Source: Mycolicibacterium helvum (GTDB taxonomy: Bacteria > Actinomycetota > Actinomycetes > Mycobacteriales > Mycobacteriaceae). Taken from it: 64,000 nucleotides of DNA. Location of the stretch: positions 3,782,001 through 3,846,000 of the forward strand of contig NZ_AP022596.1 in NCBI RefSeq assembly GCF_010731895.1, given 5' to 3'. A model generated the notes under the pieces. The model saw only the letters and a program-made list of their open reading frames with translations. It ran no database searches and was not told the origin of the DNA. Positions within the stretch are counted from its first letter, which is position 1. Every line of letters begins with the position of its first letter. The translations under genes were made by a program, and so were the position numbers. Positions 46,500 through 62,798 of the stretch are shown piece after piece.

Positions 46500-46609
46500 A
46501 CGTCTGGGCGAACAGATCCTGATTTCTATGACGCGGTACGAGCCGTCATTACCGCGGAATCCGAAGGTGCGTTCACCAACTCGATGCGTTCTCGCCGTGG
46601 GGAGCGGGG

Positions 46610-47893
46610 GTGACGAGTGAAGAGAATCGAGGGTGCGTGCGTTGTCGTTTGTGCGGTTCATCTCGCCTGGTCAGCGTTCTCGATCTGGGGGCGACACCCC
46701 CGTGTGAGCGGTTCCTTCGCGGGGATGAACTCGATGCTCCTGAGCCGACTTTCCCATTGCACCTGCGGCTCTGTGAAACATGCCTGCTGCTGCAAATCCC
46801 GGCGTTGATCACGCCCGAGGACACCTTCACCGAATACGCGTACTTCTCCTCCTACTCCGATAGTTGGGTTCAGCACGCCAAGACGTTCGTAGACGACGCC
46901 GTTACGCGGTTTGGCCTCGGACCAGACTCGTTCGTCGTCGAAGTGGCCAGCAATGACGGATACCTACTCCAGCACGTGGTGGCCGCAGGTATCCCATGCT
47001 TGGGAATCGAGCCGTCCCACAACGTAGGGGCTGCGGCCCGCGACCGTGCTGTGCCGACCCGGACGGATTTCCTCGACCCAGGTGTGGCGCAGGCCGTGGT
47101 GGCCGAGCATGGGCCGGCCGATCTGGTGATCGCGAACAATGTGTACGCACATGTTCCCGACATCATCGGTTTCGGTCTGGCCCTGCGGGCCCTCCTCGCC
47201 GACGACGGCTGGCTGAGCATCGAGGTTCACCACGCACTCAACCTGGTGACGCTCGGTCAGTTCGACACCATCTATCACGAGCACTTCCAGTACTACACGG
47301 TGCTCGCGGCGACCAGAGCGCTGTCGGTCGCCGGGCTCAGCGTGGTCGACGCCGAGCTGATCCCGACCCACGGCGGGTCGATCCGATTGTGGGCTCAGCC
47401 CGAAGAGGTTGGGGCCCAGCCGAGTTCGCGGCTCCGCGAGATCTTGCACGCGGAGCAACTCGCAGGTTTACACGAGGTCGCGGGGTATCTCAATCTGCGG
47501 ACTCACACCGAGTCGCTGCGACACGAACTCCTGAGATTCCTCCTCGACTGCAAGGCGAACAACCAGCGGGTGGTTGCCTACGGCGCGCCGGGCAAGGGCA
47601 ACACCCTGCTGAACTACTGCGGGATTCGCAGCGACCTTGTCGAGTACGCCGTTGATCGCAATCCCTATAAGCACGGCCGGTTCACCCCGGGCACGCGCAT
47701 TCCCATCCGGGAACCGGCGGCGATCGCGCAGGACCGCCCCGACGTCGTACTCGTCCTGCCGTGGAATCTCGAAACCGAGCTGACCAGTCAGCTTTCGTAT
47801 GTCGCGGACTGGGGCGGGCGGCTGGTCTACCCGCTACCGACGTTGCATGAGGTCAGCTGGCAACCCGAAGTCGTAAGGAGTCACGCCGGATGA
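46610..47893 (+). CDS. NDP-hexose C-methyltransferase family protein
   Basis: 427 residues in the three-part layout of TylCIII/NovU-type sugar C-methyltransferases: N-terminal zinc-binding domain (CRLCGSSRLVSVLDLG ... LCETC), central SAM-binding domain (VVEVASNDGYLLQHVVAAG, LVIANNVYAHVPDI) and C-terminal domain (VAYGAPGKGNTLLNYCGI). These add a methyl group to carbon 3 of a 4-keto-6-deoxy sugar nucleotide. Start GTG 46610 follows GGGGAG. First gene of the locus; its stop overlaps the next ATG (ATGA). Confidence 0.85.
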   Translation: MTSEENRGCVRCRLCGSSRLVSVLDLGATPPCERFLRGDELDAPEPTFPLHLRLCETCLLLQIPALITPEDTFTEYAYFSSYSDSWVQHAKTFVDDAVTRFGLGPDSFVVEVASNDGYLLQHVVAAGIPCLGIEPSHNVGAAARDRAVPTRTDFLDPGVAQAVVAEHGPADLVIANNVYAHVPDIIGFGLALRALLADDGWLSIEVHHALNLVTLGQFDTIYHEHFQYYTVLAATRALSVAGLSVVDAELIPTHGGSIRLWAQPEEVGAQPSSRLREILHAEQLAGLHEVAGYLNLRTHTESLRHELLRFLLDCKANNQRVVAYGAPGKGNTLLNYCGIRSDLVEYAVDRNPYKHGRFTPGTRIPIREPAAIAQDRPDVVLVLPWNLETELTSQLSYVADWGGRLVYPLPTLHEVSWQPEVVRSHAG

Positions 47894-48672
47894 AGGTGGT
47901 CTTGTTCTGCGGCGGCTACGGCATGAGGATGCGCAACTCCGTCCACGACGACATCCCCAAACCGATGCAGATGGTCGGTCCCCGACCGTTGTTGTGGCAT
48001 GTGATGCGCTACTACGCGCACTTCGGGCACAAGGAGTTCATCTTGTGCCTCGGCTACGGCGCCTCCCACATCAAGGACTTCTTCCTGGAGTATCGGGAGA
48101 CCGCGTCGAACGATTTTGTTATGCGCGACGGCCAAGTTCAGTTGCTGGACAACGACATCAGCGACTGGAAGATCACATTCGTCGACACCGGGCTGGAGTC
48201 GCCGCTCGGTGAGCGGCTCCGCCGAGTGCGCGATTACCTCGACGGGGACGAGTACTTCCTGGCCAACTACGCCGACGTCCTGACCGATGCGCGGCTTGAT
48301 GACGTCATCGACCGATTCCACGCGTCCGGAGCGGTGGCTTCGATGATGCTGGTGCCGCCGCAGCAGTCGTTCCACTGTGTTGAAGTGAAAGACTCCGGCG
48401 AGGTCAAGGAGATCATCCCGGTCGCCGACTTGCCGATCTGGGTCAATGGTGGCTTCTTCGTCCTCTCCCAGGAGATCTTCGACTACCTGCCGCCGGGCGG
48501 GGATCTGGTCGGCGACGCATGTCAGACGCTGGCGGGTCAGGGTCGGCTGTTCGGCTACCAGCACACAGGATTCTGGAAGCCGGCCGACACCTTCAAAGAG
48601 CGAGCCGAACTCGATGACGGCTACCGCCATGGCAACCGCCCGTGGGCGCTGTGGGAGTTATCGGATGCGTGA
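47890..48672 (+). CDS. Glucose-1-phosphate cytidylyltransferase-like protein
   Basis: 260 residues. MKVVLFCGGYGMRMRNS and PKPMQMVGPRPLLWHVMRYY fit the nucleotide-binding loop of RfbF-type cytidylyltransferases; WKITFVDTGLESPLGERLRR, WVNGGFFVLSQEIFDYL and YQHTGFWKPADT match that family more than the RmlA type. It would activate a hexose-1-phosphate with CTP. No CDP-glucose 4,6-dehydratase gene is obvious next to it. The expected GGxGTR loop is GGYGMR. Confidence 0.8.
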   Translation: MKVVLFCGGYGMRMRNSVHDDIPKPMQMVGPRPLLWHVMRYYAHFGHKEFILCLGYGASHIKDFFLEYRETASNDFVMRDGQVQLLDNDISDWKITFVDTGLESPLGERLRRVRDYLDGDEYFLANYADVLTDARLDDVIDRFHASGAVASMMLVPPQQSFHCVEVKDSGEVKEIIPVADLPIWVNGGFFVLSQEIFDYLPPGGDLVGDACQTLAGQGRLFGYQHTGFWKPADTFKERAELDDGYRHGNRPWALWELSDA

Positions 48673-49315
48673 ACTGTCGACCGGCGCCGTGGGTGAGATC
48701 GCGGTCGTCGGTGCCCACTGCGACGACATCGCCATCGGGATGGGCGGCACCCTGCTCTCGCTGTGCGCTGACGAGCCCGGCCTTGTTGTTCATGCGCTGG
48801 TGTTGTCTGGTGGTGGTACCGAGCGCGGGGCGGAGGAGCGCGCGGCGCTCGACGCATTCTGCCCGGGGGCCACAACGCACGTGACCGTGCTGAACATCCC
48901 GGATGGCCGGACGCCGGCACACTGGCAGGCGGTGAAGACCGCGTTGCACGACTTTCGCCAAACATGCCATCCGACAATCGTGTTCGGCCCTCAACGGCAC
49001 GATGCGCACCAGGACCATCGGCTGATCGCCGAGCTGCTGCCCACGGAATTTCGTGACCACCTGACCCTCGGTTACGAGATCGTGAAGTGGGAGACCGACA
49101 CTCCCCAGCCGAATGTGTTCGTCCCGCTGACCGTCGAGACCGCCGAGGAGAAGGCGCGGTTGCTGTGCAAGCACTACCCGTCACAGGTGATGCACGACTG
49201 GTTCGATGAAGAGGTTTTCTTGGGCTTGTCGCGGTTGCGTGGGGTGCAGTGCCGGAGTCGGTATGCGGAAGCCTTCGCGGTAGAAAAGCTCTCCCTCAAA
49301 CTCGGAGGCTGCTGA
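48665..49315 (+). CDS. PIG-L (LmbE) family deacetylase
   Basis: 216 residues. The zinc motif AHCDDIAIGMGGTL (AHPDD in most members) and RHDAHQDHRLIAELL identify the PIG-L fold, whose enzymes remove N-acetyl groups from GlcNAc-type sugars, as MshB does. Here it likely deacetylates a sugar of the cluster's product, leaving a free amine. ATG 48665 overlaps the preceding gene by 8 bp; the next ATG follows its stop directly. Confidence 0.85.
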   Translation: MRELSTGAVGEIAVVGAHCDDIAIGMGGTLLSLCADEPGLVVHALVLSGGGTERGAEERAALDAFCPGATTHVTVLNIPDGRTPAHWQAVKTALHDFRQTCHPTIVFGPQRHDAHQDHRLIAELLPTEFRDHLTLGYEIVKWETDTPQPNVFVPLTVETAEEKARLLCKHYPSQVMHDWFDEEVFLGLSRLRGVQCRSRYAEAFAVEKLSLKLGGC

Positions 49316-50356
49316 ATGCGCGTACTCGTCACCGGCCATCAGGGCTACCTCGGCACCGTGATGGTCCCGGTTCTGCGCGAAGCAGGGCACGAGGTAATCG
49401 GCTTGGACACAGGGTATTTCGCCGATTGCGTGCTCGGCCCGGCGCCGGCGGATCCACCACAGTTGGGCGACGGCCGACCTGTGGACCTGCGCGACGTCAC
49501 TGCTGAGCAACTGAACGGGGTGGAGGCCATCGTCCACCTGGCGGCATTGTCCAACGACCCGCTCGGCGATCTCGCCCCCGACGTGACCTACGAGATCAAC
49601 CACCGCGCATCGGTGCAGCTGGCCCGGGCCGCCAAGGCGGCCGGGGTGTCCCGCTTTCTCTACGCATCGACGTGCTCGGTATATGGATCGGCCGGCGATG
49701 GTCTCGTTGACGAGGACGCGCCGCTGCGGCCGTTGACGCCATACGCGGAAAGCAAGGTCTGGGTGGAAGACGATCTTGCAGCGATCGCCGATTCGGGTTT
49801 CGTGCCGGTATTCCTGCGGAATGCAACGGCTTTCGGGTTCTCGCCACGGCTGCGGGCGGACATCGTGCTGAACAACCTGGTGGGGCATGCCGTGCTCAGT
49901 GGCGTGGTCAAGGTGTTGTCCGACGGGACGCCGTGGCGGCCCCTGGTGCACGCCGAGGACATCGCCCGAGCATTCGCCCTGTGCCTGACCGCGCCCGCCG
50001 AGGCGATTCAGTGTCAGGCATTCAACGTCGGAACCGAGGCCAACAACGTCACGGTGGCCGAGATCGCCCGCGCGGTGGCCGAGGTTGTCCCGGGTGCCGA
50101 GTTGCGCATTACCGGTGAAACCGGCGCTGATCCACGGTCCTACCGGGTCGACTTCGCCAAGGCGCGTGAGCGCCTGGGATATCAGGCGCAGTGGTCGGTG
50201 GCCGACGGTGCCGCGGAACTGTACGCCAAGTACACCGGCTATGGGCTGACCGAAGCGGCGTTCAGCGGTCAGTTCACTCGGCTGGCGCGTCTGAAGGCCC
50301 TGCGCCAATCAGGCGTGCTGGACGAGGCGATGTCTCGGGGAGACCGAGTTGGTTGA
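49316..50356 (+). CDS. Extended SDR sugar-nucleotide epimerase/dehydratase
   Basis: 346 residues. NAD-binding VLVTGHQGYLGTVMVPVL, active-site ASTCSVYGSAGDG and TPYAESK (YxxxK), and NATAFGFSPRLRADIVLNN, typical of NAD-dependent epimerases in C-methyl sugar pathways. It probably acts on the same nucleotide sugar as the methyltransferase. ATG 49316 abuts the deacetylase stop. Its last 83 bp overlap the convergent RmlC-like gene. Confidence 0.85.
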   Translation: MRVLVTGHQGYLGTVMVPVLREAGHEVIGLDTGYFADCVLGPAPADPPQLGDGRPVDLRDVTAEQLNGVEAIVHLAALSNDPLGDLAPDVTYEINHRASVQLARAAKAAGVSRFLYASTCSVYGSAGDGLVDEDAPLRPLTPYAESKVWVEDDLAAIADSGFVPVFLRNATAFGFSPRLRADIVLNNLVGHAVLSGVVKVLSDGTPWRPLVHAEDIARAFALCLTAPAEAIQCQAFNVGTEANNVTVAEIARAVAEVVPGAELRITGETGADPRSYRVDFAKARERLGYQAQWSVADGAAELYAKYTGYGLTEAAFSGQFTRLARLKALRQSGVLDEAMSRGDRVG

Positions 50357-50894
50357 CCAGCTGACGCCAGTTTCCGGCGGAACGGTCGCGTGCCGAGACC
50401 GTCGTCGGCGGCAGCGGCCACGCGATGGCGAGATCGGTGTCATCGAATGCGACGGCCAGATCTTCACTCGGGTCGTGTGCGCGGTCGATGCGGTAACAAA
50501 CATCGGCGGTCGGCGTGATGGCTTGAAAGCCATGCAGAAACCCCTGCGGCACATAGAGGTGCAGGAAATCGGTGTCATCGAGCCGGATGCACAGCTGATG
50601 GCCGAAGGTCGGGGAGTCAGGCCGGATGTCGACGATGACATCGTGTACCGCTCCGTTCGCGCATCGGACGAGTTTGGCTTCGCCCGGTCCCGACCGGCCG
50701 TGCATTCCGCGGATGGTTCCCTGCACCGACCGGGACTGCGAATCCTGCACAAACGACGCGCTGAGACCGGGCGTGCCGAAGTAGTCATCGAAGATGTCGG
50801 CATCGAAGGTTCGGGTGAACAGGCCGCGGTCGTCGGTGAACGGCTGGGGAACGAGAACGACGACGCCGGGAACTCCGGTTTGTCTGATCCGCAC
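50274..50894 (-). CDS. RmlC-like dTDP-sugar 3(,5)-epimerase
   Basis: 206 residues, cupin-type epimerase: GTIRGMHGRSGPGEAKLVRC with the catalytic His, VDIRPDSPTFG, YVPQGFLHGFQAIT and FDDTDLAIAWPLP. The catalytic Tyr region usually reading DYYDP is RAHDP here, so it may epimerise only one carbon. It is the only minus-strand gene among the sugar-pathway genes, overlapping the epimerase gene at its 3' end and starting (GTG 50894) 14 bp from the divergent methyltransferase-like gene. Confidence 0.8.
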   Translation of the reverse strand: MRIRQTGVPGVVVLVPQPFTDDRGLFTRTFDADIFDDYFGTPGLSASFVQDSQSRSVQGTIRGMHGRSGPGEAKLVRCANGAVHDVIVDIRPDSPTFGHQLCIRLDDTDFLHLYVPQGFLHGFQAITPTADVCYRIDRAHDPSEDLAVAFDDTDLAIAWPLPPTTVSARDRSAGNWRQLVNQLGLPETSPRPARLIGAGPSDAPAE

Positions 50895-50908
50895 GGAGCC
50901 ATGCTGCC

Positions 50909-52039
50909 ATGAGTGGCTGCCGAGGATGCCGAAGCCGCGCCTTGGCCCGAGTGTTGGACTTGGGTTGCGTGCCCGCGCAGGATTTCTTCCCCGCTGCCGG
51001 TGACCCCGTAGTGCCGGCGGAGTCGTCGCACCCGCTCGCGATGGATCTGTGTGGTGATTGCGGTTTGGCGCAGTTGGCAGAGGACGACACGGTGACCGAC
51101 GAGCCCCGGGCCGTCGAACCGCAGGCGCTGCAACGCCAGGCGGCCGACGCGGTCGGCCGGGTGGCGGCGGCGCAGTTGTTGCGCGGATCTACGGTGCGCG
51201 AGTTCGGTAGTCCGCACGGGGGCAGCTGGCTACCTTTGCTCGCCGCCCGCGGATTCACCGAGGCCGAGGTGGCCGATGTCGTCCTGGACTGCTTCGGGGT
51301 GATGCACGAGCCCGACCAGCAAACCGCGTTCGAGAGGCGTGCCGCCGTGACGGCCACCGGTGGAGTGCTGCTCGTCCAATACCACTCGTTGGCGACGATC
51401 GTCGCCAAGAAGCAGTGGAACTGCCTGCGGCACGGCCACTACGCCTACTACTCGACAGCCGCGATACTCGGTCTGCTGGAACGGGCGGGAATGAGTGCGG
51501 TCGATGCGTGGGAATTCGACCTGTACGGCGGCACGGTGTTGCTGGCCGCGGCGCACGGGCAAATGCGTCCGCCCAACTCGGTGCGCCGGATACTGGCCAA
51601 CGAGGAAGGGATCACCCAACCGGCCGTCGTCGGGACGCTGCAGCAAGCCGCCGACAGCCACTGTCGGGCGCTGCGGGAGTGGCTCGAGCGGCAAGCCGAT
51701 GCTGGGCATCGGGTCTATGGCTACGGCGCCGCATCCCGTGCAGTCGCCTTGTTCGCGCTCGCAGGTATCGACCGCAGGCTCCTGGCCGCGGTCGCAGATG
51801 CATCCACCTCGAAGCAAGGCCGTCGGATGCCCGGCACCGATATCCCGATCATCACACCGGACGAGCTGATCGCGGCCGATCCTGACCGGGTTCTTCTGAC
51901 CCTGCCCGACTTGCTCCCGGAGGTTTCGGTTACCTACCCCCAACTCGCCGGACGATGGATCACCGACGAGGGCATGTCTGCGGAGTGCGGGCCAGGTAAC
52001 TCATTCTCCTGCGTCGCCACAGCAAAGTTTCATGCGTAG
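50909..52039 (+). CDS. Degenerate C-methyltransferase paralogue
   Basis: 376 residues, same layout as the 46.6-kb protein: zinc-binding CRGCRSRALARVLDLG with CGDCGLAQ, and C-terminal RVYGYGAASRAVALFALAGI. The central SAM domain is shortened and its glycine-rich motif is altered (REFGSPHGGSWLPLL instead of VEVASNDGYLL), although ADVVLDCFGVMHEP keeps the later motif. It may not bind SAM and could act as a partner subunit or with a changed reaction. ATG 50909. Confidence 0.72.
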   Translation: MSGCRGCRSRALARVLDLGCVPAQDFFPAAGDPVVPAESSHPLAMDLCGDCGLAQLAEDDTVTDEPRAVEPQALQRQAADAVGRVAAAQLLRGSTVREFGSPHGGSWLPLLAARGFTEAEVADVVLDCFGVMHEPDQQTAFERRAAVTATGGVLLVQYHSLATIVAKKQWNCLRHGHYAYYSTAAILGLLERAGMSAVDAWEFDLYGGTVLLAAAHGQMRPPNSVRRILANEEGITQPAVVGTLQQAADSHCRALREWLERQADAGHRVYGYGAASRAVALFALAGIDRRLLAAVADASTSKQGRRMPGTDIPIITPDELIAADPDRVLLTLPDLLPEVSVTYPQLAGRWITDEGMSAECGPGNSFSCVATAKFHA

Positions 52040-52297
52040 CGATCCGTCATCCGGCGAAGTCTGGATTGGCTCCCTGTTGCCGGTGCGTCGCAGCCGCACA
52101 GAAAACCTTCCTGTCTGGAGTGATGCGGTTTGGAGTGCTCCGCCGAGAGGTCGTGAGGTACACGTGTTGGATATTTCACTGTCCGCCGTCGTGCAAATTT
52201 GGCGAATTTTTGTTAGTTTGCCAATAGTCTTCCAAGCGGATGGTGCGACGACGTTGCGTCTCGTGGGAGCGCTGCAGCGTTTTGATGATGAGGAGAG
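52040..52297. other. AT-richer intergenic region inside the polysaccharide locus
   Basis: 258 bp separating sugar-activation genes from glycosyltransferase genes. Contains a TAGTCT hexamer (52225-52230) about 70 bp before the GT start and GCAAA/TTTGC arms around it, consistent with an internal promoter, but no clear -35. Confidence 0.35.
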
Positions 52298-53167
52298 ATG
52301 GTCGTGAGCAACGTCATCGGCATATGGGATGCGATGTCACACGCGGTGCGCCGGCCGAAGATTTCGGTCGTCATACCCGCACTGAACGAGGAGCGCAATC
52401 TCTCCTATATCGCCTCGCGTCTGCCCCACGATGTCGACGAGGTCGTGTTCGTCGACGGGGGCTCGCTGGACAACACCGTGGCGGTCGCCCGCGAACTGTG
52501 GCCCGCCGGTGTCCACCTCGTGCAGACCCGCAAGGGCAAAGGCAATGCCTTGGCGTGCGGCTTCGCCGCTGCCTCCGGCGACATCATCGTGATGATCGAC
52601 GCCGATGGCAGCACCGACCCCGCGGAGATTCCCCGTTTCGTTGGGGCGCTGATTTCGGGCAAGGACTTCGCCAAGGGGTCACGCTTCGTCCAGGGTGGCG
52701 GGAGCAGCGACATCACCCGCACCCGGCGCCTCGGCAACTGGGGACTGAACACGTTGGTCAACGTGCTGTTCGCGACCAAATACACGGACCTGTGCTACGG
52801 GTACAACGCCTTCTGGAGCGATTGCCTCGACGTGATGGACTTGCCAGATCCGGGGATCGAACGTCCGCAGTGGGGCGACGGGTTCGAGATCGAGTCACTG
52901 ATCAACGTTCGCGTCGCGGCCAGCGGAATGCAGATCGCCGAAGTCAGCAGCTACGAGCTCGACCGGATCCACGGCGCCAGCAACTTGAACGCGGTCAGCG
53001 ACGGCCTGCGGATCTTGTGGACCATCTTGCAAGAGTTCAAGCAGGCGCGTCGGCGTGGGTGGAAGCGCGGCGTGGGCGGACGCAGCCTGAACGTGACCGC
53101 AGCCGGGCGGTACCGATTCGACGCCGACCTGCAGGCTCAATCCCTGCCTGATGTGCGGCATGCCTGA
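52298..53167 (+). CDS. GT2 glycosyltransferase, polyprenyl-phosphate transferase type
   Basis: 289 residues. GT-A fold: KISVVIPALNEERNLSYI, EVVFVDGGSLDNTV, KGKGNALACGFAAASGDIIV, IDADGSTDPAEI (metal-binding DxD), then TDLCYGYNAFW. This resembles dolichol/decaprenyl-phosphate sugar transferases. It may load the first sugar onto a lipid carrier, a role otherwise missing in this locus. AGGAG precedes ATG 52298 closely; GTG 52304 has better spacing and is an alternative. Confidence 0.82.
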   Translation: MVVSNVIGIWDAMSHAVRRPKISVVIPALNEERNLSYIASRLPHDVDEVVFVDGGSLDNTVAVARELWPAGVHLVQTRKGKGNALACGFAAASGDIIVMIDADGSTDPAEIPRFVGALISGKDFAKGSRFVQGGGSSDITRTRRLGNWGLNTLVNVLFATKYTDLCYGYNAFWSDCLDVMDLPDPGIERPQWGDGFEIESLINVRVAASGMQIAEVSSYELDRIHGASNLNAVSDGLRILWTILQEFKQARRRGWKRGVGGRSLNVTAAGRYRFDADLQAQSLPDVRHA

Positions 53168-53186
53168 AAACCGGGGGTAATCAGCT

Positions 53187-54089
53187 GTGGGGCAAACAAT
53201 CTCGCCAGCGGCAGAAGTCACGCAAGGGGTGGAGGTCAAAGGGCCTAAAGTCTCCCTGTGCATCCCGGCCTTTCAGGCGGGCCAGTTCTTGCGCGCCACG
53301 CTGGACAGCGTGCTGGCGCAGGATTTCCCCGACATGGAGATCGTCGTCGTCGATAACAACAGCACTGACGAAACGCGAACGATCCTCGACGCCGTCACCG
53401 ATGACCGCGTTCGCGTGATCACCAATCGCACCACCCTGTCGGCCGAGGACAACCACAACCTCGTGGTCAAGCTCAGCCGCGGCGAATTCGTCAAAGTCGT
53501 CAGCGCCGACGACACACTCAGACGCAATTGCGTGACTGCGCAGGCAGCAGTCCTCGACAGCAACCCGGACATCGCTTTGGTTGCCAGCCGAACCGATTTC
53601 ATCGATGACGCCGGCGCGCTGCTGTTCGCGGGCAGGGGTCTGCGGGGCATCCTGGGCCGTCAAACCGGCGAGCAGGTGATCCGCAAGATTGTGCGCAGCG
53701 CCAAGAACCCCGTCGGTGCTCCCGTGTCAGTGATGTTCCGGCGGGCCGATTTTGACCGCTGTGGCGGCTTCCGCGGGCCCTCGCTCTTCACGCTTGACAT
53801 GGACCTGTGGGCCCGGTTGTTGCGACAGGGCCACTTCTACGGCATGCCGGAGACGTTGGCGGCGTATCGAATCCAGGGTGGCTCACTGACGGCGTCGATA
53901 TCTGCGCGATCACAATTGGCGCAGCAGGACAAACTCACCCGCAGGATCGTCGATGATCCCCACTGGAAAGTTCCCCACATTGATCGCCTCGTGGGCAAGA
54001 TCAACCGCTACGACGTTCTTGTGAAGCGGACGGTGCTGTTCAAACTGAGCAGCCTGCGTTCGTTCATGCGACAGCCGCGAATTGGCTGA
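53187..54089 (+). CDS. GT2 family glycosyltransferase
   Basis: 300 residues. KVSLCIPAFQAGQFLRATLD, MEIVVVDNNSTDETRTIL, VVSADDTLRR (DD metal site) and FTLDMDLWARLLRQGHFYG are typical of family 2 transferases using nucleotide sugars at the inner membrane face. Acceptor and donor unknown. GTG 53187 lies 19 bp after the preceding gene with GGGGG upstream. Confidence 0.85.
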   Translation: MGQTISPAAEVTQGVEVKGPKVSLCIPAFQAGQFLRATLDSVLAQDFPDMEIVVVDNNSTDETRTILDAVTDDRVRVITNRTTLSAEDNHNLVVKLSRGEFVKVVSADDTLRRNCVTAQAAVLDSNPDIALVASRTDFIDDAGALLFAGRGLRGILGRQTGEQVIRKIVRSAKNPVGAPVSVMFRRADFDRCGGFRGPSLFTLDMDLWARLLRQGHFYGMPETLAAYRIQGGSLTASISARSQLAQQDKLTRRIVDDPHWKVPHIDRLVGKINRYDVLVKRTVLFKLSSLRSFMRQPRIG

Positions 54090-54090
54090 A

Positions 54091-55080
54091 ATGGCACACG
54101 AACTGAGTCTCACTTCAGATGAGCACAACCCGGTCGCCGCGCCGACCGATGTGCTCTCGGTGGTCATTTGTGCATACACGCAGGCCCGATGGACATGGCT
54201 GTGCGAAGCCGTGGAATCGGTGCTGGCCGGCAGCAATGCCCCCGTGGAAGTGATCGTCGTGATCGATCATTGCGACGAGCTCCTCGAGTCCGCCGCCCAC
54301 CATTTTGCCGCTGATCGACGGGTGCAGGTGATAGCGAACCGCGATGTGCGCGGGTTGTCCGGGGCACGTAATACCGGAGTTCGCAACGCACGCGGCGATG
54401 TGGTCGCATTCCTCGACGACGACGCCGCGGCACAGCCCGGCTGGGCGGACAAACTGATGGACCACTATCGAGACGACACGGTGGCGGGGGTGGGCGGATA
54501 TGCCCGTCCGGTGTGGCCGGGTAGCCGGCCAGCCTGGCTGCCCGCTGAATTCGATTGGGTGGTCGGCTGCAGCTACATCGGGCAACCGACGCGACTTGCG
54601 CAGGTACGTAACCCTATTGGGTGCAATATGTCGCTACGCCGGTCGGTTGTCGAAAAAGTCGGTGGATTCAGATCGGAAGTAGGCCGGGTGGGAACCACTC
54701 CGGTCGGCTGTGAAGAGACCGAATTGTTCATCCGGGTCCGGGCCGACAGGGCAGCCAACCGGGTGCTGTTTGATCCAGACATCCGCGTCGAACACCACGT
54801 CTCCGAAGACCGCACGACCCTCAAGTACTTCGTTCGCCGGTGCTACCACGAGGGCTTGTCGAAGGCTGTTGTGACCGAGCTTGCCGGTGCTGCAGACGGA
54901 TTGAGCAGCGAACGCTCCTACGTCGGTCGTGTGCTCCCGATTGCGATCGCGCGCGAGTTGGCGTCGATGACATCCGATGGGCTGGCCCGCGCCGCCGTGA
55001 TCTGCCTCGGCCTCGCCGCCACGACGATTGGCTTCGTTCGGGCCAAGGTCGGCCGCCGATTGTCCGGGAGGGCAACGTGA
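54091..55080 (+). CDS. GT2 family glycosyltransferase with C-terminal membrane segment
   Basis: 329 residues. LSVVICAYTQARWTWLCEAV, GLSGARNTGVRNARGDVVAF, LDDDAAAQPGW (DDD metal site), NPIGCNMSLRRSVVEKVGGF and CEETELFIRV fit GT2 enzymes; the end RAAVICLGLAATTIGFVRAK is hydrophobic and may anchor it. ATG 54091 is one base after the preceding stop. Confidence 0.85.
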   Translation: MAHELSLTSDEHNPVAAPTDVLSVVICAYTQARWTWLCEAVESVLAGSNAPVEVIVVIDHCDELLESAAHHFAADRRVQVIANRDVRGLSGARNTGVRNARGDVVAFLDDDAAAQPGWADKLMDHYRDDTVAGVGGYARPVWPGSRPAWLPAEFDWVVGCSYIGQPTRLAQVRNPIGCNMSLRRSVVEKVGGFRSEVGRVGTTPVGCEETELFIRVRADRAANRVLFDPDIRVEHHVSEDRTTLKYFVRRCYHEGLSKAVVTELAGAADGLSSERSYVGRVLPIAIARELASMTSDGLARAAVICLGLAATTIGFVRAKVGRRLSGRAT

Positions 55081-56396
55081 GCGGCAATGACTTCCCTTGC
55101 CTGACGCTGGCTCCGGTCTTGCACAACCCGCTGCGGCCGAGTTGGAGTGGGGCTATCTGGATCGGCGAAGTGTGGCTTGACGCCGTCGATTCCGCGACTC
55201 AGGCTAGCGTCAACTCTGGGGTGCCCGCGGTGTGCCGACTCCAGAACGCCGAGGGATTCTCCCGGGCGCGCCTGCTGGTTCGTGACCGTGAGCGGGCGGT
55301 GGGATTTGTCGATCTTGCGGTCAACGACGGCGAAGTCGCGTTCAGTGATCTGCGGGATCAGGTTGTTGCCCAGCAATATTCGCTACCACAGGCGGTGCCG
55401 GCCCGAGCCGAGAGAGGTCCTAACGAGACGACGCATATCACGGTGATCGTGTGCACCCGCGATCGCACCGAAATGCTCGAATCGGCGTTGACGTCGATTC
55501 TCGCCTCCGACCATCCTGATTTCGGGGTGTTGGTCGTCGACAATGCGCCAAGCAGCGACACCACCCACCAGTTCGTCACCGGACTTGCTGACCCACGGGT
55601 GCGATTGATCACCGAACCCTTGCCGGGTCTCTCGCGGGCAAGGAATGCGGGACTGCTGGCAGCAGACGGGGACATCGTCGCCTTCGTCGACGATGACGTG
55701 ATCGTTGACCGGGACTGGTTGAACATCCTGGTAAGGGGCTTTGGCTACGGCAATGCCGTCGCGTGTGTGTCCGGGATGGTTCCCGCCGGTGAACTGAGGA
55801 CACCGGCGCAGGCCTACTTCGAAAATCGGGTTGGCTGGTCGGAGTCTGCCCACGTGCGGGTCTTCGAGTGGTCGCAGGTACCCAAGGACGTTCCGCTGTT
55901 TCCCTTCGAGGTTCGGCACTATGGAACCGGCGCTAACTTTGCTGTCGATCGTCGAGTCGCGTTGAGCATCGGAGGATTTGACGAACGTCTCGGTGCCGGC
56001 ACCCCCGCCAGTGGTGGTGAGGACATCGACATGTTCTTCCGGATCTTGCGTTCCGGACGGCAGCTCGTTCACGAGCCTGCGGCGATCGCCTGGCATCGGC
56101 ATCGTTCCACCGCCGACGACCTGCGCGCGCAAACTCGGGGCTACGGGCTGGGTTTGGGTGCGTGGCTGGCGAAGATCGCCTCTGATCCGGCAATGGCGAT
56201 GCTTGCGGCCAAGACTGTCGTCCGACGCGGAGCGGCGCTCGTTCGCCACGTGCGATCGGCATCGCGAAGCGCCTCGCCGTCGCCCTCAGTAGAAGCTGAC
56301 TTGCCGTCGGACATCGGCAGTGGAACGTGGCGTTTCGTGGCCAAGGGCGCTTGGGCGTACCTCATCGCGTCGGGCGCTCGAGGCGCCGCGCGGTGA
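55077..56396 (+). CDS. GT2 family glycosyltransferase with N-terminal extra domain
   Basis: 439 residues. About 115 N-terminal residues of unknown role precede the GT-A domain: HITVIVCTRDRTEMLESALT, GLSRARNAGLLAADGDIVAF, VDDDVIVDRDWL, YGTGANFAVDRRVALSIGGF and SGGEDIDMFFRILRSG. GTG 55077 overlaps the previous stop (GTGA); the frame is open farther upstream but antiphase to the previous gene. Its own stop overlaps the flippase GTG. Confidence 0.83.
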   Translation: MSGNDFPCLTLAPVLHNPLRPSWSGAIWIGEVWLDAVDSATQASVNSGVPAVCRLQNAEGFSRARLLVRDRERAVGFVDLAVNDGEVAFSDLRDQVVAQQYSLPQAVPARAERGPNETTHITVIVCTRDRTEMLESALTSILASDHPDFGVLVVDNAPSSDTTHQFVTGLADPRVRLITEPLPGLSRARNAGLLAADGDIVAFVDDDVIVDRDWLNILVRGFGYGNAVACVSGMVPAGELRTPAQAYFENRVGWSESAHVRVFEWSQVPKDVPLFPFEVRHYGTGANFAVDRRVALSIGGFDERLGAGTPASGGEDIDMFFRILRSGRQLVHEPAAIAWHRHRSTADDLRAQTRGYGLGLGAWLAKIASDPAMAMLAAKTVVRRGAALVRHVRSASRSASPSPSVEADLPSDIGSGTWRFVAKGAWAYLIASGARGAAR

Positions 56397-57697
56397 CCGC
56401 CAATCTTGCCTCCCCCGAGCAGGCTGGAGCACCTACATCGCCCGCCGCCGGCCGCAACATGACGGTCAACTCCATCTCGCTCATCATCTCGAGTCTGCTG
56501 ACCGGCGTCCTGGGTCTGGTTTTCTGGGGCGCGGCCGGCCGGCTATATCCCGCAAGCGAAGTCGGCGTGGCCGCCGCGTTGATCACCTCGGCCCTGATGT
56601 TGTCGATGTTGTCGATGTTGTCGATCGACACGATCTACGAACGCTTCCTGCCGCTGGCCGGCGAGCGGACCGGCTCGCTGATCAAGTGGGGCTATCTGAC
56701 CGTTGCCGGCACCGCTTTGCTCGCGGGAGCCGCGTTGGTGGCGTTCGGCCCACGTGAAGAACTCTTCGAGTCCAAGTGGGCGATGTTCTGCTACCCGCTG
56801 CTGGTGATGGTGCTGGCGGTGTTCACCCTGCTGGACAAGACCGCGGTTGGCCTCGGGGTGACGAAGTGGTCGGCGGTGAAGAACCTCGTCCACGCTGTCG
56901 TGAAACTGGGGATCCTGTTCTGCCTGGTATGGACGGGCAGCGGGGCCTCGATCGTGCTGGCCTGGGGAGCGACCGCGGCAGTCGGAACCCTGTTCGTGCT
57001 GGCCGCAATGCGACGGCGCTGGCGCACCCACGAGCAGTTCCGTCAGAGTGCTGCCCTGCCCGTCCGGTCGGAACTGTTGTCGTATGTCGGGTCGTCTTTC
57101 GGGATCACCAGCCTCTGGATTATCGGACCGCTGGTCGTACCGCTGATCATCGTCAGCCGGTTCGGTGCCGCGGCCAACGCGCATTTCGCGGTGACGTGGG
57201 CGATCATCAACGCACTTTATTTCGCGGTGCACCTGGTGATGAGTCCGTTCGTTGCTGAGGTGGCGGCCCATCCCGACAAGGTCGGGTCGCTATCGGTCCG
57301 GATGGTCCAGATGATGGTGGTGGTATCCATCGCCGGCGCGCTCGGGCTGGTTCTGGTGGGGCCGTTTGTGCTCGGCATCATCGGACCCGACTACCAGGCG
57401 CAGGGCAGCGGATTGCTCACCTTGGCGGCGGTCTTCGTGCCGCTGTCGGCGATCAGCGCGATCTACGAAGGCTTCGCGCGGGTGCGTCGCAAGCTCACGC
57501 TGATGGTCGTCACCCGTTGCATTGCCGCGGTGGCCATCGTCGCCGGGACATTGTTGATCACACCGCATCTGGGCTTGATCGGTGTCGGCTGGGCGTACCT
57601 GGCGGCGGAGGCGATTCCGGCGGCCATCCTGCTACCCCTGGTGATCAGCTGGCTTCGACACGTCCGAGTCGACGCTGCAGCAGCTGCAGTCGGCTAG
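56393..57697 (+). CDS. Wzx-like polysaccharide flippase (MOP superfamily)
   Basis: 434 residues, 12 or more predicted membrane helices (ISLIISSLLTGVLGLVFWGA, then AMFCYPLLVMVLAVFTLL, VLAWGATAAVGTLFVLAAM, VVVSIAGALGLVLVGPFVLG). MOP-superfamily exporters flip lipid-linked repeat units across the membrane. GTG 56393 overlaps the GT stop. A 9-bp triplication encodes LSMLSMLS in the second hydrophobic stretch. Convergent with the GH16 gene, overlapping by 4 bp. Confidence 0.8.
   Translation: MTANLASPEQAGAPTSPAAGRNMTVNSISLIISSLLTGVLGLVFWGAAGRLYPASEVGVAAALITSALMLSMLSMLSIDTIYERFLPLAGERTGSLIKWGYLTVAGTALLAGAALVAFGPREELFESKWAMFCYPLLVMVLAVFTLLDKTAVGLGVTKWSAVKNLVHAVVKLGILFCLVWTGSGASIVLAWGATAAVGTLFVLAAMRRRWRTHEQFRQSAALPVRSELLSYVGSSFGITSLWIIGPLVVPLIIVSRFGAAANAHFAVTWAIINALYFAVHLVMSPFVAEVAAHPDKVGSLSVRMVQMMVVVSIAGALGLVLVGPFVLGIIGPDYQAQGSGLLTLAAVFVPLSAISAIYEGFARVRRKLTLMVVTRCIAAVAIVAGTLLITPHLGLIGVGWAYLAAEAIPAAILLPLVISWLRHVRVDAAAAAVG
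56596..56622 (+). repeat. Triplicated 9-bp unit in the flippase gene
   Basis: GATGTTGTC three times in tandem, in frame, adding or removing SML-type tripeptides in a membrane helix if it slips. Confidence 0.85.
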
Positions 57698-58467
57698 AGG
57701 GAATACTCGCGCACCCAGTTAACCGCCATATCGGCGCCACCGCCCAGGTCGCCGCCGAAGTTGTCCAGCTGGATGCACAAATGCATCGGCCCCGGCGGTA
57801 GATGCGCAGGATCGGTGCTCTCCCACCATTGGACGCCATCGACGAACATTGCGATCCGCTCGGGTGTCCACTCGACTGCCCAGCTGTGCCACTGGGTCGA
57901 ATCTATTTGGACCACCCCTGATTCGCGGTCGTCATTGGGGCCGAAGTGCAGCCAGCCTTCGACGGACTGGCGGGTGGGATCGGCAATCTCCATGAAGTCG
58001 ACCTCGCCACCGACAGGCCAATTCTCGGCGTCCGGCCACAACAGTAGGAGGGCGTGATACCCCGGACCCGACGGCGACGACTTCACACACGCCTCCCACC
58101 GGCCGTGCATTTGTCCGGGTAACCAGGCCATGCCGCCCGAGTTCCCCTCGGCGTCTGCGGTGATGATCAGGTTCCCGTTAACGATGGAAACCGCGGCGGG
58201 CGTACGACGACCGTTGTCATTGTGACCTGGACCGTCATAGATCGACCATTGGTTCAGCGCCGCGGGGTCAGTGAATTCGTCGGTGCGACTGGGTTCGCCC
58301 CAGCCGTGCGCGGCGGCGGCGGTGTGCGGGCAGTTGCCGTCCCCGGTGGCGGCGGCGGCGATCGGGTGGATGTGGGTGGCTGAGGCCACGGTCAGCCCCA
58401 GCGTCACCGAAACGACACTCGTCAACGAGGTTAGAACGTGAGCGGCGCGTGGCATGGGGAGTGGCAT
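57694..58467 (-). CDS. Secreted GH16 family glycoside hydrolase
   Basis: 257 residues. N-terminal signal-like segment (VLTSLTSVVSVTLGLTVASA), then a GH16 jelly-roll with the catalytic GGEVDFMEIAD (ExDxxE, about residue 155) and HALLLLWPDAENWP. GH16 enzymes cut beta-1,3 or beta-1,4 glucans and galactans. It could trim or release the cluster's polymer. ATG 58467 chosen, with AAGAAAG upstream; ATG 58455 is an alternative. Opposite strand to the biosynthetic genes. Confidence 0.88.
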   Translation of the reverse strand: MPLPMPRAAHVLTSLTSVVSVTLGLTVASATHIHPIAAAATGDGNCPHTAAAAHGWGEPSRTDEFTDPAALNQWSIYDGPGHNDNGRRTPAAVSIVNGNLIITADAEGNSGGMAWLPGQMHGRWEACVKSSPSGPGYHALLLLWPDAENWPVGGEVDFMEIADPTRQSVEGWLHFGPNDDRESGVVQIDSTQWHSWAVEWTPERIAMFVDGVQWWESTDPAHLPPGPMHLCIQLDNFGGDLGGGADMAVNWVREYSL

Positions 58468-58579
58468 CTGCTTTCTTGGTCACTCGAACCGCGGTACTCG
58501 ACCAAGGCCTGGGGCACATCCCGTCGCGGTGTCGAACGGGTTCAGTCTACCCAAACGCCCGCGCGGTCCAGGCGGGCTA

Positions 58580-58846
58580 CTACTTGGGCTTCCCACCGCG
58601 TCGCAGCACAGTGATCCATTGCTGCAAGAGGCCGGTTGGGCGTTCTCGTCGGTAGCGGTTGCACTGGCACAAGCCGCAGTCCGTCCCGCGTCGGTAATGT
58701 TCATGCGCCGGACGGCCGTGGCCACACCTGCAGTTCCGGTTTTGCATACCACTCGAACCATACGCGGCCACCGGAATCAAACCCCCCGTTCGATCTTCAG
58801 AACCGGCCATCTTACGCGGCGCCGCGACGGCTGAATTCGACGTCAT
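58580..58846 (-). CDS. Small Cys/His-rich actinobacterial protein
   Basis: 88 residues. The C-terminal CRCGHGRPAHEHYRRGTDCG followed by LCQCNRYR has five cysteines and histidines spaced as in a small zinc site. Similar proteins occur in actinobacteria, sometimes near exopolysaccharide genes, from memory; function unknown. ATG 58846 with GGGACCGGA upstream. Possibly co-transcribed with the downstream GH16 gene. Confidence 0.6.
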   Translation of the reverse strand: MTSNSAVAAPRKMAGSEDRTGGLIPVAAYGSSGMQNRNCRCGHGRPAHEHYRRGTDCGLCQCNRYRRERPTGLLQQWITVLRRGGKPK

Positions 58847-59062
58847 AATTCCGGTCCCTTGTTTGTGCCCAGTCTGCTCGCAGCGCAATTGCCGAGAAAT
58901 TGTGGTGTGTACATCGTCCGGCCTCGCAGCGATCGTGTAGCCCCTCACCATGGAGTTGTTACCAAAGTGATAGATGAGCTCTATGTGATAAATGAGGTCC
59001 TTGGGAATATTGTGACTTCGCCCGGCCTCGACTAAAAGGTGCCTTTATCGCGATGGAGAGAC

Positions 59063-60289
59063 ATGTTCCGGTCCTGCTCGGCAATTGTTTCAGCCGTCGC
59101 AGTGGTCTGGGGTGCGGTCCTGGTCGTGGTGGCGCCGTCGGCCCACGCCGCCGAAGCCACGGCGATCGATGCCGACTCGATGACCCTCACGGCAGGCAAG
59201 GGGACCACGGTCTACTCCGACGCCAAGGCATCAGGGGGCAGAGCGATCGCTCTGACCGGTGCGGTGACAATTGCCAGCACCCTGACCATTCCGGACTCAG
59301 TCCGAGTGGTGGTTCGGGCCAAGGGGAGACCGTGTTTTGGCGCACCGGTTGGGCGAGTGTCAGTGGACGGAGTGAACATCGGCACCAGCCCCGTGACGGC
59401 ATCCACCTGGACGGATTACACCGCCACCGCCCCGATCGCGGCGGGGTCTCACACGATCGGGGTCTCATTCATCAACCCGTTGTGGTTCGGCTGCTCACGG
59501 GTGCTCTACGTCGACACCATCAGTATCGTTGCGGCCACGGTGAGCACCAGCCCGGACACCCTGACCACAGCTCCCGTCGGCAACCTTCCCGGGTGGACAC
59601 ACATCTTCGCCGACGACTTCACTCGCGATGCAGCACTTGGCAGTTGGGCCAATCCGTCGGATCCGACCAAGGTGGTCTACGTCGGTTCCGGCGGGCAGCG
59701 GTGGCTCACCTATCCGCAGACCTTTACCGACACCTATCAGCACCGTCCCTATCGGGCGGATCAGGTGCTCAGCGTTTCCAACGGCACCTTGAACTTCTTT
59801 CTGCACAACGTCGACGGCAAACCCGCCGGTGCCAATCCCTCCCCGGTGCTGCCCGACGGTACCCAGTATCAGACGTACGGACGCTACTCGGCGCGGTTGA
59901 AGGTGGACACCCCCACGCTGAGCGAGTACCACATCGCCTTCCTGCTGTGGCCGAAGTCCGAGCTGTGGCCGAACGACGGCGAAATAGATTTCCCGGAAGG
60001 CGCACTGTCGTCGACGTCGCACGCGTACGCCCACTACGCCCGATCCACCGGCGGTCAGGACGGCGTCGACACCGGGGTGTCATTCACAGACTGGCATGTG
60101 TACACCCTCGAATGGCTTCCCGGTCACGTCCGGTTCTATCTCGACGACGATCTTGTGCTGGACAGCACCAAGTACGTACCGAGCAAGCCCATGCGCTGGC
60201 AACTGCAAACCGAAACCGACGGGAATGGGACAAACACCGGTCATCTGCTGGTCGATTGGGTTTCGATATGGTCATACGCGGGTGGCTAG
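59063..60289 (+). CDS. Secreted GH16 hydrolase with N-terminal carbohydrate-binding domain
   Basis: 408 residues. Signal peptide MFRSCSAIVSAVAVVWGAVL with cleavage after AHA. Residues about 28-155 form a beta-rich module (TLTAGKGTTVYSDAKASGGR, RVVVRAKGRPCFGAPVG, SRVLYVDTISI) like xylan-binding CBM60-type domains. The GH16 domain follows, catalytic NDGEIDFPEG (Glu about residue 307). ATG 59063 is chosen because GGAGAG lies just upstream; a GTG at 59039 is in frame. The pair of GH16 genes points to a beta-glucan- or galactan-like polymer. Confidence 0.88.
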   Translation: MFRSCSAIVSAVAVVWGAVLVVVAPSAHAAEATAIDADSMTLTAGKGTTVYSDAKASGGRAIALTGAVTIASTLTIPDSVRVVVRAKGRPCFGAPVGRVSVDGVNIGTSPVTASTWTDYTATAPIAAGSHTIGVSFINPLWFGCSRVLYVDTISIVAATVSTSPDTLTTAPVGNLPGWTHIFADDFTRDAALGSWANPSDPTKVVYVGSGGQRWLTYPQTFTDTYQHRPYRADQVLSVSNGTLNFFLHNVDGKPAGANPSPVLPDGTQYQTYGRYSARLKVDTPTLSEYHIAFLLWPKSELWPNDGEIDFPEGALSSTSHAYAHYARSTGGQDGVDTGVSFTDWHVYTLEWLPGHVRFYLDDDLVLDSTKYVPSKPMRWQLQTETDGNGTNTGHLLVDWVSIWSYAGG

Positions 60290-60318
60290 CGCCACAAGAA
60301 CTCGCGTCAGCTAATCGG

Positions 60319-60324
60319 TAGGCT
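60319..60324 (+). promoter_or_regulatory. Leaderless -10 of the large membrane protein gene
   Basis: TAGGCT, 6 nt, ATG 60331, no ribosome site in the gap. Confidence 0.45.
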
Positions 60325-60330
60325 GGCTCG

Positions 60331-62607
60331 ATGTTACAACGCCTCGAAAGTTCCCCGGCGCCGCCGGGGAGCTCCAGACGGCGTGCCGCGCGACACCTCC
60401 TCGCCAGCCGAAATCTCCCGGTCTGGACTCCGCTGATAGTCGCGGCCTCGGCAGCGGTGGTCGCCGCATCGTTCACGGTGACCGTGCTGTCCTCCTACGG
60501 CGCCGCGGAGGTGCTGCCCCCGGCGATACGCGCCGTTGTCGGCGTGCTCGCGGTCCTGACAATGCCCGGCCTCCCTATCGTCGCGCTGCTGAGACTGCCG
60601 ACTAACGGGGTTTTCGCCAGCGTTGCGATATCGCTGTCGCTAGCTGTCAATGTGCTTCTGGCCCAATTGAACTACGCCGGATCTTTGCATCAGCCCTACC
60701 TGGTGCAGTACACGGTTCTGGCGATCGGCGGTGTCGCCGCCGGCGCGTTGGCGCGCCGATGGCGTCGCGAGAACCAGGAACGTGACGGCCCGCCGAACTC
60801 GACGAGGGCCGCCATGTCGGCGGTGCTGCGCTGGACGCGACGCCAACTGGCGTCGACCGGCGGCCGCAGGGTCAGCGTGAGCCTGCTGGTCGCCGCGGCG
60901 CTGCTGTTCTTCTCCGCGGTCCACCGGCTCGACGTCGACGCGGCGGGCAGCCTTGGGCTAGTCGGCGTGCTCGGAATGGACTATTTCGCGGGATTAGCGG
61001 TGCTGTCCGCGCTGCTGGTGCTCGAGTACCGGCGCGCAGCGCTCGATCGGCCCGTGATTGCGCTCTCCAACGTCGCCCTGACCACCTACATCACCATGCC
61101 TGTCGCATGGTCGATGGGCACCGCACCGTTCGTGACGGCCTACGTGCACCGCATGATCACGAACTGGCTGGTGCAGCTGGGCGGTCTACCGCCGCCGGTC
61201 GATGCCCGGATCAGTTGGGCGGGGTTCTTCTCGGCAGGAGCGAACCTGGCGACGACCACCGGCGTGAACGATTCCGCAATCTTCCTCGTCAGCGCGTCGT
61301 TGGTGATGGGCATTTGCCTCATGTTTCCGGTTCATGCGGTTGGGCTGGCCATCACCGGAAGCCGGCGCATCGCCTGGCTGGGCGTCACGATGCTCACCCT
61401 GTTCAACTGGTACCAGCAGGACTACTTCGCGCCCCAGGCCGTCGCGATGCAGTTCTACGCAACGATTTTGGCCGTATTGTTCTGGCAGTTACGGGTTTCC
61501 AATGTTCCGCAGCTTTGCGGCGGCCGCCTGAGGCGACTGAGGACCGCATGGATGCGGATACCGGGCCGGGTGCCCGGGCGGGACGCGTCCTCCACGCTGG
61601 CCATCGAGCTCGTGCTGGTGGTGATCCTGGCCGCGATGGTGGTCGCCCACCAGCTGACCCCATTGGCCTCGATCGGGGCACTGCTGATCTTTGCGATCTG
61701 CGGGCTGACTCGCTACAACCTGCTGTGGCTGGCCGCGGCGGTGCTGTTCATCGCGTGGTTCTGCTACGGCGCCTACCCCTACTGGCAGGGTCACCTCGGT
61801 CAGGTCATCGCCGACATCGGTGGCGTCGATCAGAATCTGAATTCCAGTGTGTCGGAAAAGATCACCGGCGATCCCGTCTACAGCCGAATGCAACTGCTCC
61901 GCATTGTCGCCGCGCTGGTGCTGATGGGTATGGCCGGTATCGGGTGGCTCCGATTGCGTCGAATAAGCGGAAGCAGGCCGATATTGGCGGTGGCCGTCGC
62001 GTTGGCTCCGTTCGGCCTCGTCTTGCTGCAAAGCTACGGCGGGGAGGTGGCGATTCGGGCCTTCCTGTACGCCTCGCCGGTGCTCTCACCGCTGGCGGCG
62101 CTATCCGTCATGCCGCTCCTGCGTCCACGCACCGCACGAATCACGTGGCGTCGGCTGACCGGTGCGGCTTCCTGGTGTGTGCTGTTCGCGTTGGCCTTGT
62201 TGGTGATCGCCAACCGCGGCCTGAACATCTCGTTTGAACGAACGATGCCGCACGAGGAGAAGATTGCCAGCGAGCTCGTTGCCCAAATTCACGACTACGG
62301 GTTGGGGTACTGGGGACAGGGCGCGCTCTACGGGGTGCCGAGAACCTTCGAACTGGAGGACCGGTGCTTTGTCTCAGCCGAGGAACTGGCCAATTGCACG
62401 GCAACGCCTGATGTGGAGTTCTTTTCCAACACCGAACAAGACGAGAATTTCATCCATTACAGCCTCGGAGTCAGTCGTGCGATGGCCGACAAGGCGATCG
62501 ACCTTCTTCGGACGGAGAAGGGGTATCAGACCATCTATGACTCAGGCGGCATCGTGGTGCTCAAGCGGCCCGAAGCCCCATTCGTCAGGTTGGGAGTCGA
62601 CGGATGA
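60331..62607 (+). CDS. Large polytopic membrane protein, candidate polymerase or GT-C transferase
   Basis: 758 residues with about 12-14 hydrophobic segments and a long extracytoplasmic loop region near the middle (SMGTAPFVTAYVHRMITNWL, NWYQQDYFAPQAVAMQFYAT). The last 120 residues are soluble (IHDYGLGYWGQGALYG, TFELEDRCFVSAEELANCTA). No family recognised; size and context fit a Wzy-like polymerase or a membrane glycosyltransferase using lipid-linked donors. No Lys-rich or Wzy signature proves this. The stop overlaps the next ATG (ATGA). Confidence 0.7.
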   Translation: MLQRLESSPAPPGSSRRRAARHLLASRNLPVWTPLIVAASAAVVAASFTVTVLSSYGAAEVLPPAIRAVVGVLAVLTMPGLPIVALLRLPTNGVFASVAISLSLAVNVLLAQLNYAGSLHQPYLVQYTVLAIGGVAAGALARRWRRENQERDGPPNSTRAAMSAVLRWTRRQLASTGGRRVSVSLLVAAALLFFSAVHRLDVDAAGSLGLVGVLGMDYFAGLAVLSALLVLEYRRAALDRPVIALSNVALTTYITMPVAWSMGTAPFVTAYVHRMITNWLVQLGGLPPPVDARISWAGFFSAGANLATTTGVNDSAIFLVSASLVMGICLMFPVHAVGLAITGSRRIAWLGVTMLTLFNWYQQDYFAPQAVAMQFYATILAVLFWQLRVSNVPQLCGGRLRRLRTAWMRIPGRVPGRDASSTLAIELVLVVILAAMVVAHQLTPLASIGALLIFAICGLTRYNLLWLAAAVLFIAWFCYGAYPYWQGHLGQVIADIGGVDQNLNSSVSEKITGDPVYSRMQLLRIVAALVLMGMAGIGWLRLRRISGSRPILAVAVALAPFGLVLLQSYGGEVAIRAFLYASPVLSPLAALSVMPLLRPRTARITWRRLTGAASWCVLFALALLVIANRGLNISFERTMPHEEKIASELVAQIHDYGLGYWGQGALYGVPRTFELEDRCFVSAEELANCTATPDVEFFSNTEQDENFIHYSLGVSRAMADKAIDLLRTEKGYQTIYDSGGIVVLKRPEAPFVRLGVDG

Positions 62608-62798
62608 TTGCGATCGCGTTGTTCGTCACCTCAGGCGTGCTGTTCCTGTTGGCCGCATACCGGCGCGAACAGGGGATCCCTGAAGCTGGGGCTCGGCGAC
62701 CCGACCACACCACCGCATTCCTGCGACTGCAGGCATTGTGCGCGGCCGTGGGTGCGATCGCGGTCTCGGTCGTCCATATGATCACTGTCGTCTCCTAA
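62604..62798 (+). CDS. Small two-helix membrane protein
   Basis: 64 residues: helix IAIALFVTSGVLFLLAAY, a short loop, then ALCAAVGAIAVSVVHMITVV. ATG 62604 overlaps the preceding stop, so it is co-translated with the large membrane protein and may stabilise it. Function unknown. Confidence 0.7.
   Translation: MIAIALFVTSGVLFLLAAYRREQGIPEAGARRPDHTTAFLRLQALCAAVGAIAVSVVHMITVVS

Follow-up and report, generated by a model that had tools for sequence, protein, structure and literature searches.

Work on the envelope glycans of mycobacteria has so far dealt mostly with arabinogalactan, lipoarabinomannan and glycolipids. In Actinoplanes missouriensis, single-gene deletions in the imp cluster lead to misshapen sporangia, according to the cited excerpts (PMC12691653, PMC13390465), and it is only for ImpE of this cluster that we found a GT-C enzyme proposed as a polymerase (excerpt of PMC12691653). 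Here, we analyzed a 64,000-nucleotide stretch of DNA (the window; positions 3,782,001 to 3,846,000 of the 6.40-Mb single-contig genome of Mycolicibacterium helvum), in which a block at 3.83 to 3.85 Mb encodes sugar-nucleotide enzymes, four GT2 glycosyltransferases, a flippase (WZX), two glycoside hydrolases of family GH16 and a large membrane protein (POLY). With a probability of roughly 0.55, we read this block as a flippase-dependent extracytoplasmic glycan pathway with a GT-C enzyme in the place of Wzy, in which a lipid-linked oligosaccharide would be assembled, flipped, transferred and remodelled. The families of the parts are already known; new are their combination, their spread and their fusions. 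Among the titles and abstract openings listed for open-licence papers, there was no description of the block in mycobacteria.

An accessory block between accD5 and a PH-domain gene

An earlier reading made from the sequence only (the sequence-only reading) had placed an accessory block between core genes, and this was borne out by comparing the accD5 neighbourhood in 16 genomes of the genus, hand-picked from 118. The block, including a gene for a zinc-ribbon/DUF2510 membrane protein, was present in 3 (L105 to L107) and absent from 13. In four of the block-free sites (L099 to L102) accD5 directly adjoins the PH-domain gene, followed by GtrA, purE, fadE25 and birA in the same order as in the window genome; two others have about 1.6 kb of other sequence between the two genes, three have birA there, and in four the PH-domain gene was not found within the compared stretch. 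The position of birA itself differs: it lies between accD5 and the PH-domain gene in L111 to L113, whereas in the window genome and the relatives nearer to it (L098 to L102) its place is past fadE25.

Homology of the flanks to the four empty-site relatives ends at 46,128 and restarts at 63,866, one base before the PH-domain gene's ATG at 63,867, and the flanks are only 66 to 79 bases apart in these relatives, which defines an inserted block at 46129 to 63865 (no strand assigned). Because these limits enclose it, the zinc-ribbon/DUF2510 gene (62999 to 63838, plus strand; present in 8 of the 80 flippase loci described below, in the closest group) is counted as a block member. The earlier extent, from accD5 to the PH-domain gene, thus stands as to position and needs correction as to its limits, since this gene separates the rest of the block from the PH-domain gene. 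A start of accD5 at 46,259 is probably set too far upstream, since the stretch homologous to the empty-site genomes stops at 46,128. The GC content of the block is 0.636 vs 0.671 in window positions 1 to 44480, where windows of the same size range from 0.664 to 0.678. The window AccD5 is 96% identical to that of two empty-site genomes vs 91 to 94% to that of the block carriers G004, G024, G067 and G117 (over slightly unequal ranges), and therefore the presence of the block looks patchy, be it by loss or by transfer. An origin from a mobile element was set aside, as the block genes scanned include neither an integrase nor a transposase, in a search that did not extend to repeats at the block ends. 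Rfam at gathering thresholds gave no match in the window. A related cluster in Mycolicibacterium sp. CR10 (L059:20106-21248) lies on the opposite side of a Maf-accD5 pair.

The flippase, the GT-C-fold protein and the GH16 enzymes

WZX (56393 to 57697, plus strand) has no Pfam match, and the profiles of WZX and POLY found nothing in the PDB at an E value of 1 or lower. The predicted model of WZX, however, has the fold of the MOP superfamily and is nearest to the lipid III flippase WzxE (PDB 9g9n), matching over 389 residues at 13% identity, in line with the MOP-type flippase proposed earlier. POLY (758 amino acids; 60331 to 62607, plus strand) has 14 transmembrane-like segments in a simple hydropathy scan, and its 64-amino-acid partner (62604 to 62798, plus strand), whose gene overlaps that of POLY by 4 bases and which occurs in 7 of the 80 flippase loci, all in the closest group, has 2; the large polytopic protein with a two-helix partner was therefore correctly recognized. 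The predicted model of POLY has a GT-C core, and on this model POLY is assigned to the GT-C class. Three acidic residues, D291, D364 and E572, are conserved in the alignment. From the helix limits, the charged loops and the positive-inside rule, judged by eye, they would lie on the outer side, and they may be the counterparts of D56, D154 and E319 of PglB. Foldseek against viral structures gave nothing for POLY at an E value of 0.001. The POLY relatives P0011, P0045 and P0076 are publicly named serine/threonine protein kinases; this is apparently a naming error, because no kinase domain is present in the members scanned (POLY, P0011 and P0076).

The two GH16 genes, GH16a (57694 to 58467, minus strand) and GH16b (59063 to 60289, plus strand, with the Pfam scan begun at 59039; a CBM60-GH16 protein), match PF00722 at 4.1e-09 and 2.9e-10 and have intact ExDxxE motifs (EVDFME and EIDFPE). 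Domain and motif thus confirm two hydrolases, and their secretion was read by eye from the hydrophobic N termini. They are two of five GH16 matches in the whole genome.

The sequence-only reading was silent on any linkage of GH16, flippase and GT-C protein across species and on fusions among them. We analyzed flippase loci in the best 80 of 85 confirmed stretches, several genomes giving two. An open reading frame (ORF) for GH16 was found in 62 loci, with the ExDxxE motif in 60, and one for POLY also in 62; both were present in 59 and neither in 15, and among the 70 loci with full flanks both were present in 56. In contrast, the GH16 and POLY profiles found none in the 13 block-free accD5 sites and window positions 1 to 44000. 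Of 56 cases with GH16 and POLY on the same strand, 15 show an overlap of 8 or 17 bases between the two. By tblastn, the four GT2 enzymes were found in 64 (GT_A), 29 (GT_B), 60 (GT_C) and 59 (GT_D) of the 80 loci, cross-matching among GT2 proteins being possible. Flippase and GH16 form a single ORF in 6 of the 80 loci and, among 221 homologues listed, in 5; flippase and POLY form a single protein in 10 of the 221. In P0166, a fusion of flippase and GH16, the GH16 part comes after a hydrophobic stretch, an order consistent with a GH16 domain that faces outward. Such natural fusions are direct pointers to proteins acting together, which makes the idea of a GT-C enzyme as polymerase testable in a harmless species. 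In 11 of the 80 loci the flippase is part of a fusion with a module of adenylation, carrier and thioesterase domains that resembles nonribosomal peptide synthetases (L073:9944-13816, by Pfam; L072, L074, L080, L084 to L088, L090 and L094, by blastp to the C-terminal part of L073), which suggests, from sequence, that export is coupled to the addition of acyl or aminoacyl groups.

Relatives of the flippase were found in 80 of 297 species genomes of the genus at an E value of 0.001, the weakest being generic MOP proteins, in 37 at 1e-60 or lower and at an identity of at least 81% in ten, M. helvum itself included. A single-sequence search with POLY gave any match at 0.001 in 11 of 61 genomes, its own included, and a match of at least 56% identity in 3 of 36 other genomes of the same genus. 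The nearest named relatives of WZX, 92% identical, are from two M. sphagni strains, in a listing that may omit the M. helvum genome itself; the M. sphagni loci have two extra ORFs (574 to 586 and 406 to 412 amino acids) between flippase and GH16a (L018:11408-14706 and L019:11387-14638). Apart from these two, locus L019, of M. sphagni ATCC 33027, agrees with the block in genes and gene order.

In the pathway proposed here, a C-methyltransferase (CMT1), an RmlC-like epimerase, a reductase of the short-chain dehydrogenase/reductase (SDR) type and a 4,6-dehydratase encoded elsewhere would produce a nucleotide-activated 6-deoxy-3-C-methyl-hexose. GT_A would load the first sugar onto decaprenyl phosphate, GT_B to GT_D would lengthen the lipid-linked sugar and WZX would flip the oligosaccharide, which the oligosaccharyltransferase-like GT-C enzyme POLY would pass, outside, to a growing chain or another acceptor. 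The secreted GH16 enzymes would act on the product close to the flippase exit, by cutting or re-joining it. Gene content, empty sites, module linkage and fusions are observed and the Wzx and GT-C folds come from predicted models; the outward placement of the acidic residues, the substrates, the order of steps and a polymer as the product are what we infer. A secreted or surface glycan, as suggested before, is supported as the likely product. A bolder version, of a machine that recurs in the Mycobacteriales, in which the oligosaccharyltransferase-like GT-C enzyme polymerizes flipped repeat units instead of Wzy and a GH16 enzyme coupled to the flippase frees or re-joins the growing chain where it exits, is put forward tentatively, as less likely than not.

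The main uncertainty is whether GT_A loads the carrier or may instead make a monosaccharide donor for POLY. In the latter case, GT_A would make a polyprenyl-phosphate monosaccharide, WZX would flip it and POLY would add it to an existing envelope polymer, in the manner of ArnC/ArnT or GT136. GT_A (52298 to 53167, plus strand) is indeed related to polyprenyl-phosphate sugar synthases, its nearest solved relatives being DPM synthase, then GpgS, then ArnC; POLY models as a GT-C protein like ArnT, AftA and Emb as well; and an excerpt of PMC11127046 gives a precedent in a polyprenyl-phosphoribose synthase, a MATE-family flippase and a GT-C enzyme. All three types, synthase, MATE/MOP flippase and GT-C protein, are likely present in the block. 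However, such side-chain addition has no role for three further GT2 enzymes and GH16, the model of WZX is nearest to WzxE, which flips an oligosaccharide-lipid, and the top GT-C rows for POLY are oligosaccharyltransferases. We therefore consider it unlikely, if the most serious competitor.

The sequence-only reading had called the locus Wzx/Wzy-like, with POLY as a divergent Wzy. The Wzx-type flippase stands, by model, and several GT2 enzymes and a polytopic partner would fit; Wzy proteins are very divergent, and Pfam covers only part of their diversity. WaaL does appear in the Foldseek list of POLY, but at rank 44 (E value, 0.33; probability, 0.09), while GT-C rows fill the top. Wzy_C matched neither POLY nor its 23 relatives (24 alignment members, E value of 0.1), and Pfam gave only TRAM_2 (0.018) and DUF4131 (0.069) there, in one member each. 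Neither a phosphoglycosyltransferase nor a Wzz gene is present in the block, whereas such genes lie together at 1.37 to 1.39 Mb in the genome. The Wzy part of the earlier claim is accordingly improbable.

Still less probable is transfer of the flipped oligosaccharide en bloc onto secreted proteins by POLY. The highest structural rows of POLY, oligosaccharyltransferase, AglB and PglB, speak for it, as does the best NCBIfam row of GT_A, the S-layer glycoprotein N-glycosyltransferase AglJ (115 bits, cut-off 325). However, the WWDxG motif is typical of oligosaccharyltransferases (STT3/AglB/PglB), and WWD is absent from POLY; GH16 would be an odd partner, and the acceptor cannot be read from a fold held in common.

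The sugar kansosamine is 3-C-methylated. Decoration of a glycolipid of the lipooligosaccharide type with such a kansosamine-like sugar is the least probable reading: the excerpt on the M. kansasii lipooligosaccharide cluster (PMC4403928) does list a glucose-1-phosphate cytidyltransferase, epimerases, a rhamnose epimerase and a methyltransferase near DPM-like glycosyltransferases, but a polyketide synthase, an acyltransferase and MmpL, all in its table, were not found among the block genes scanned.

Sugar-nucleotide genes and other polysaccharide genes

The gene classes named before, C-methyltransferase, NTP transferase, PIG-L, SDR, RmlC-like, four GT2 and two GH16, are all present by Pfam, and starts and stops overlap as described: of the nine junctions between consecutive plus-strand genes that run from CMT1 to WZX, five have an overlap of 4 or 8 bases, and at one the genes abut. 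The arrangement needs amendment in that the RmlC-like gene and GH16a are both on the minus strand. The remaining GT2 genes, identified by Pfam, are GT_B (53187 to 54089), GT_C (54082 to 55080) and GT_D (55077 to 56396), all on the plus strand.

CMT1 (46610 to 47893, plus strand; Methyltransf_13/_14) has SNDG and YHEH motifs and, as best PDB relatives over nearly its full length, mycarose 3-C-methyltransferase (4rv9; 6.7e-76) and TcaB9 (9e-67). The full-length TcaB9-type match together with the S-adenosylmethionine (SAM) and active-site motifs identifies it as a sugar 3-C-methyltransferase, and C-methyl sugar chemistry is thus corroborated. Its paralogue CMT2 (50909 to 52039, plus strand, by Pfam), which had been counted as a second methyltransferase, lacks the SAM and Glu-His motifs; the roles of these and of the active-site motifs are as we presume them. 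Because its SAM motif is degenerate, CMT2 is probably not a methyltransferase. Matches to CMT2 occur in 23 of the 80 loci, the motifs having been checked in the window copy.

The RfbF-like protein (47890 to 48672, plus strand), a relative of glucose-1-phosphate cytidylyltransferase, is 0.4 bit below the Pfam cut-off for NTP transferases and reaches 195 bits with TIGR02623 (cut-off, 300), but PDB 1tzf supports it at 1.2e-46. A PIG-L family deacetylase-like protein (48665 to 49315, plus strand, by Pfam) is encoded in 19 of 20 loci with the close RfbF type (at least 60% identity) and in none of 8 with the distant type; therefore both proteins may act in concert, the loci being related and hence not independent evidence. 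A free-amine sugar is possible and the case for it weak, because PIG-L alone points there and no aminotransferase was recognized in the block. The SDR (49316 to 50356, plus strand, by Pfam; STCSVYG...YAESK) is of the epimerase/reductase type and does not contain TDE, which we take to be the dehydratase motif. The RmlC-like sugar 3,5-epimerase (50274 to 50894, minus strand, from library matches) is antisense to its neighbours and overlaps the end of the SDR gene; it is antisense to the SDR gene in all 21 loci that have it. The SDR and the RmlC-like protein would fit enzymes that epimerize position 5 of a 4-keto-6-deoxy sugar and reduce its position 4. Within the block, no 4,6-dehydratase was recognized, and the rest of the genome was not searched for one.

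Elsewhere in the genome, PF02397 matches at 1.39, 1.57 and 3.15 Mb, PF02706 at 1.37 Mb and Wzy_C at 1.38 and 1.71 Mb only. At G000:C1:1366000-1392000 (L121, L122) lies another polysaccharide cluster, of canonical appearance, which encodes a Wzz/kinase, a MurJ-type flippase, GT4 enzymes, a UDP-GlcNAc 2-epimerase, a UDP-sugar dehydrogenase, Wzy_C and a phosphoglycosyltransferase.

Comparison with known systems

If the proposed pathway holds, a sizeable fraction of mycobacteria and related bacteria have one more surface or secreted glycan, patchy in its distribution and made by way of a flippase and a GT-C enzyme. Endoglycanase ExoK of Sinorhizobium meliloti is, we presume, a GH16 member. As far as the excerpt goes, the succinoglycan exo cluster likewise combines genes for a secreted polysaccharide with ExoK, but ExoP, ExoQ and ExoT polymerize and export, and a GT-C enzyme is not mentioned (PMC1403797). 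The M. kansasii lipooligosaccharide cluster shares the cytidyltransferase, an SDR, the rhamnose epimerase and the methyltransferase near DPM-like glycosyltransferases, but differs in its polyketide synthase, acyltransferase and MmpL, and PIG-L is not in the table of the excerpt (PMC4403928). The GT136 systems are, by analogy, the precedent for the three-component alternative: according to the excerpt, they share a polyprenyl-phosphate sugar synthase, a MATE-family flippase and a GT-C enzyme, but GT136 adds side-chain pentofuranoses after polymerization, whereas the block has three more GT2 and two GH16 enzymes (PMC11127046).

The nearest precedent, again by analogy, for a flippase together with a GT-C-like protein and a hydrolase is the imp cluster. 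It differs in having three GT4 and one GT2 enzymes, GH5 instead of GH16 and an additional protein with five transmembrane segments, ImpD (excerpt of PMC12691653), and the excerpts mention no sugar-nucleotide cassette (PMC12691653, PMC13390465); POLY and ImpE are likened by description (PMC12691653). Yet both loci have four glycosyltransferases, a flippase-type protein, a GT-C-like (Alg6_Alg8) membrane protein, in Actinoplanes proposed as the Wzy, and an adjoining hydrolase gene, there gimB, whose product cuts the imp product (excerpts of PMC12691653, PMC13390465).
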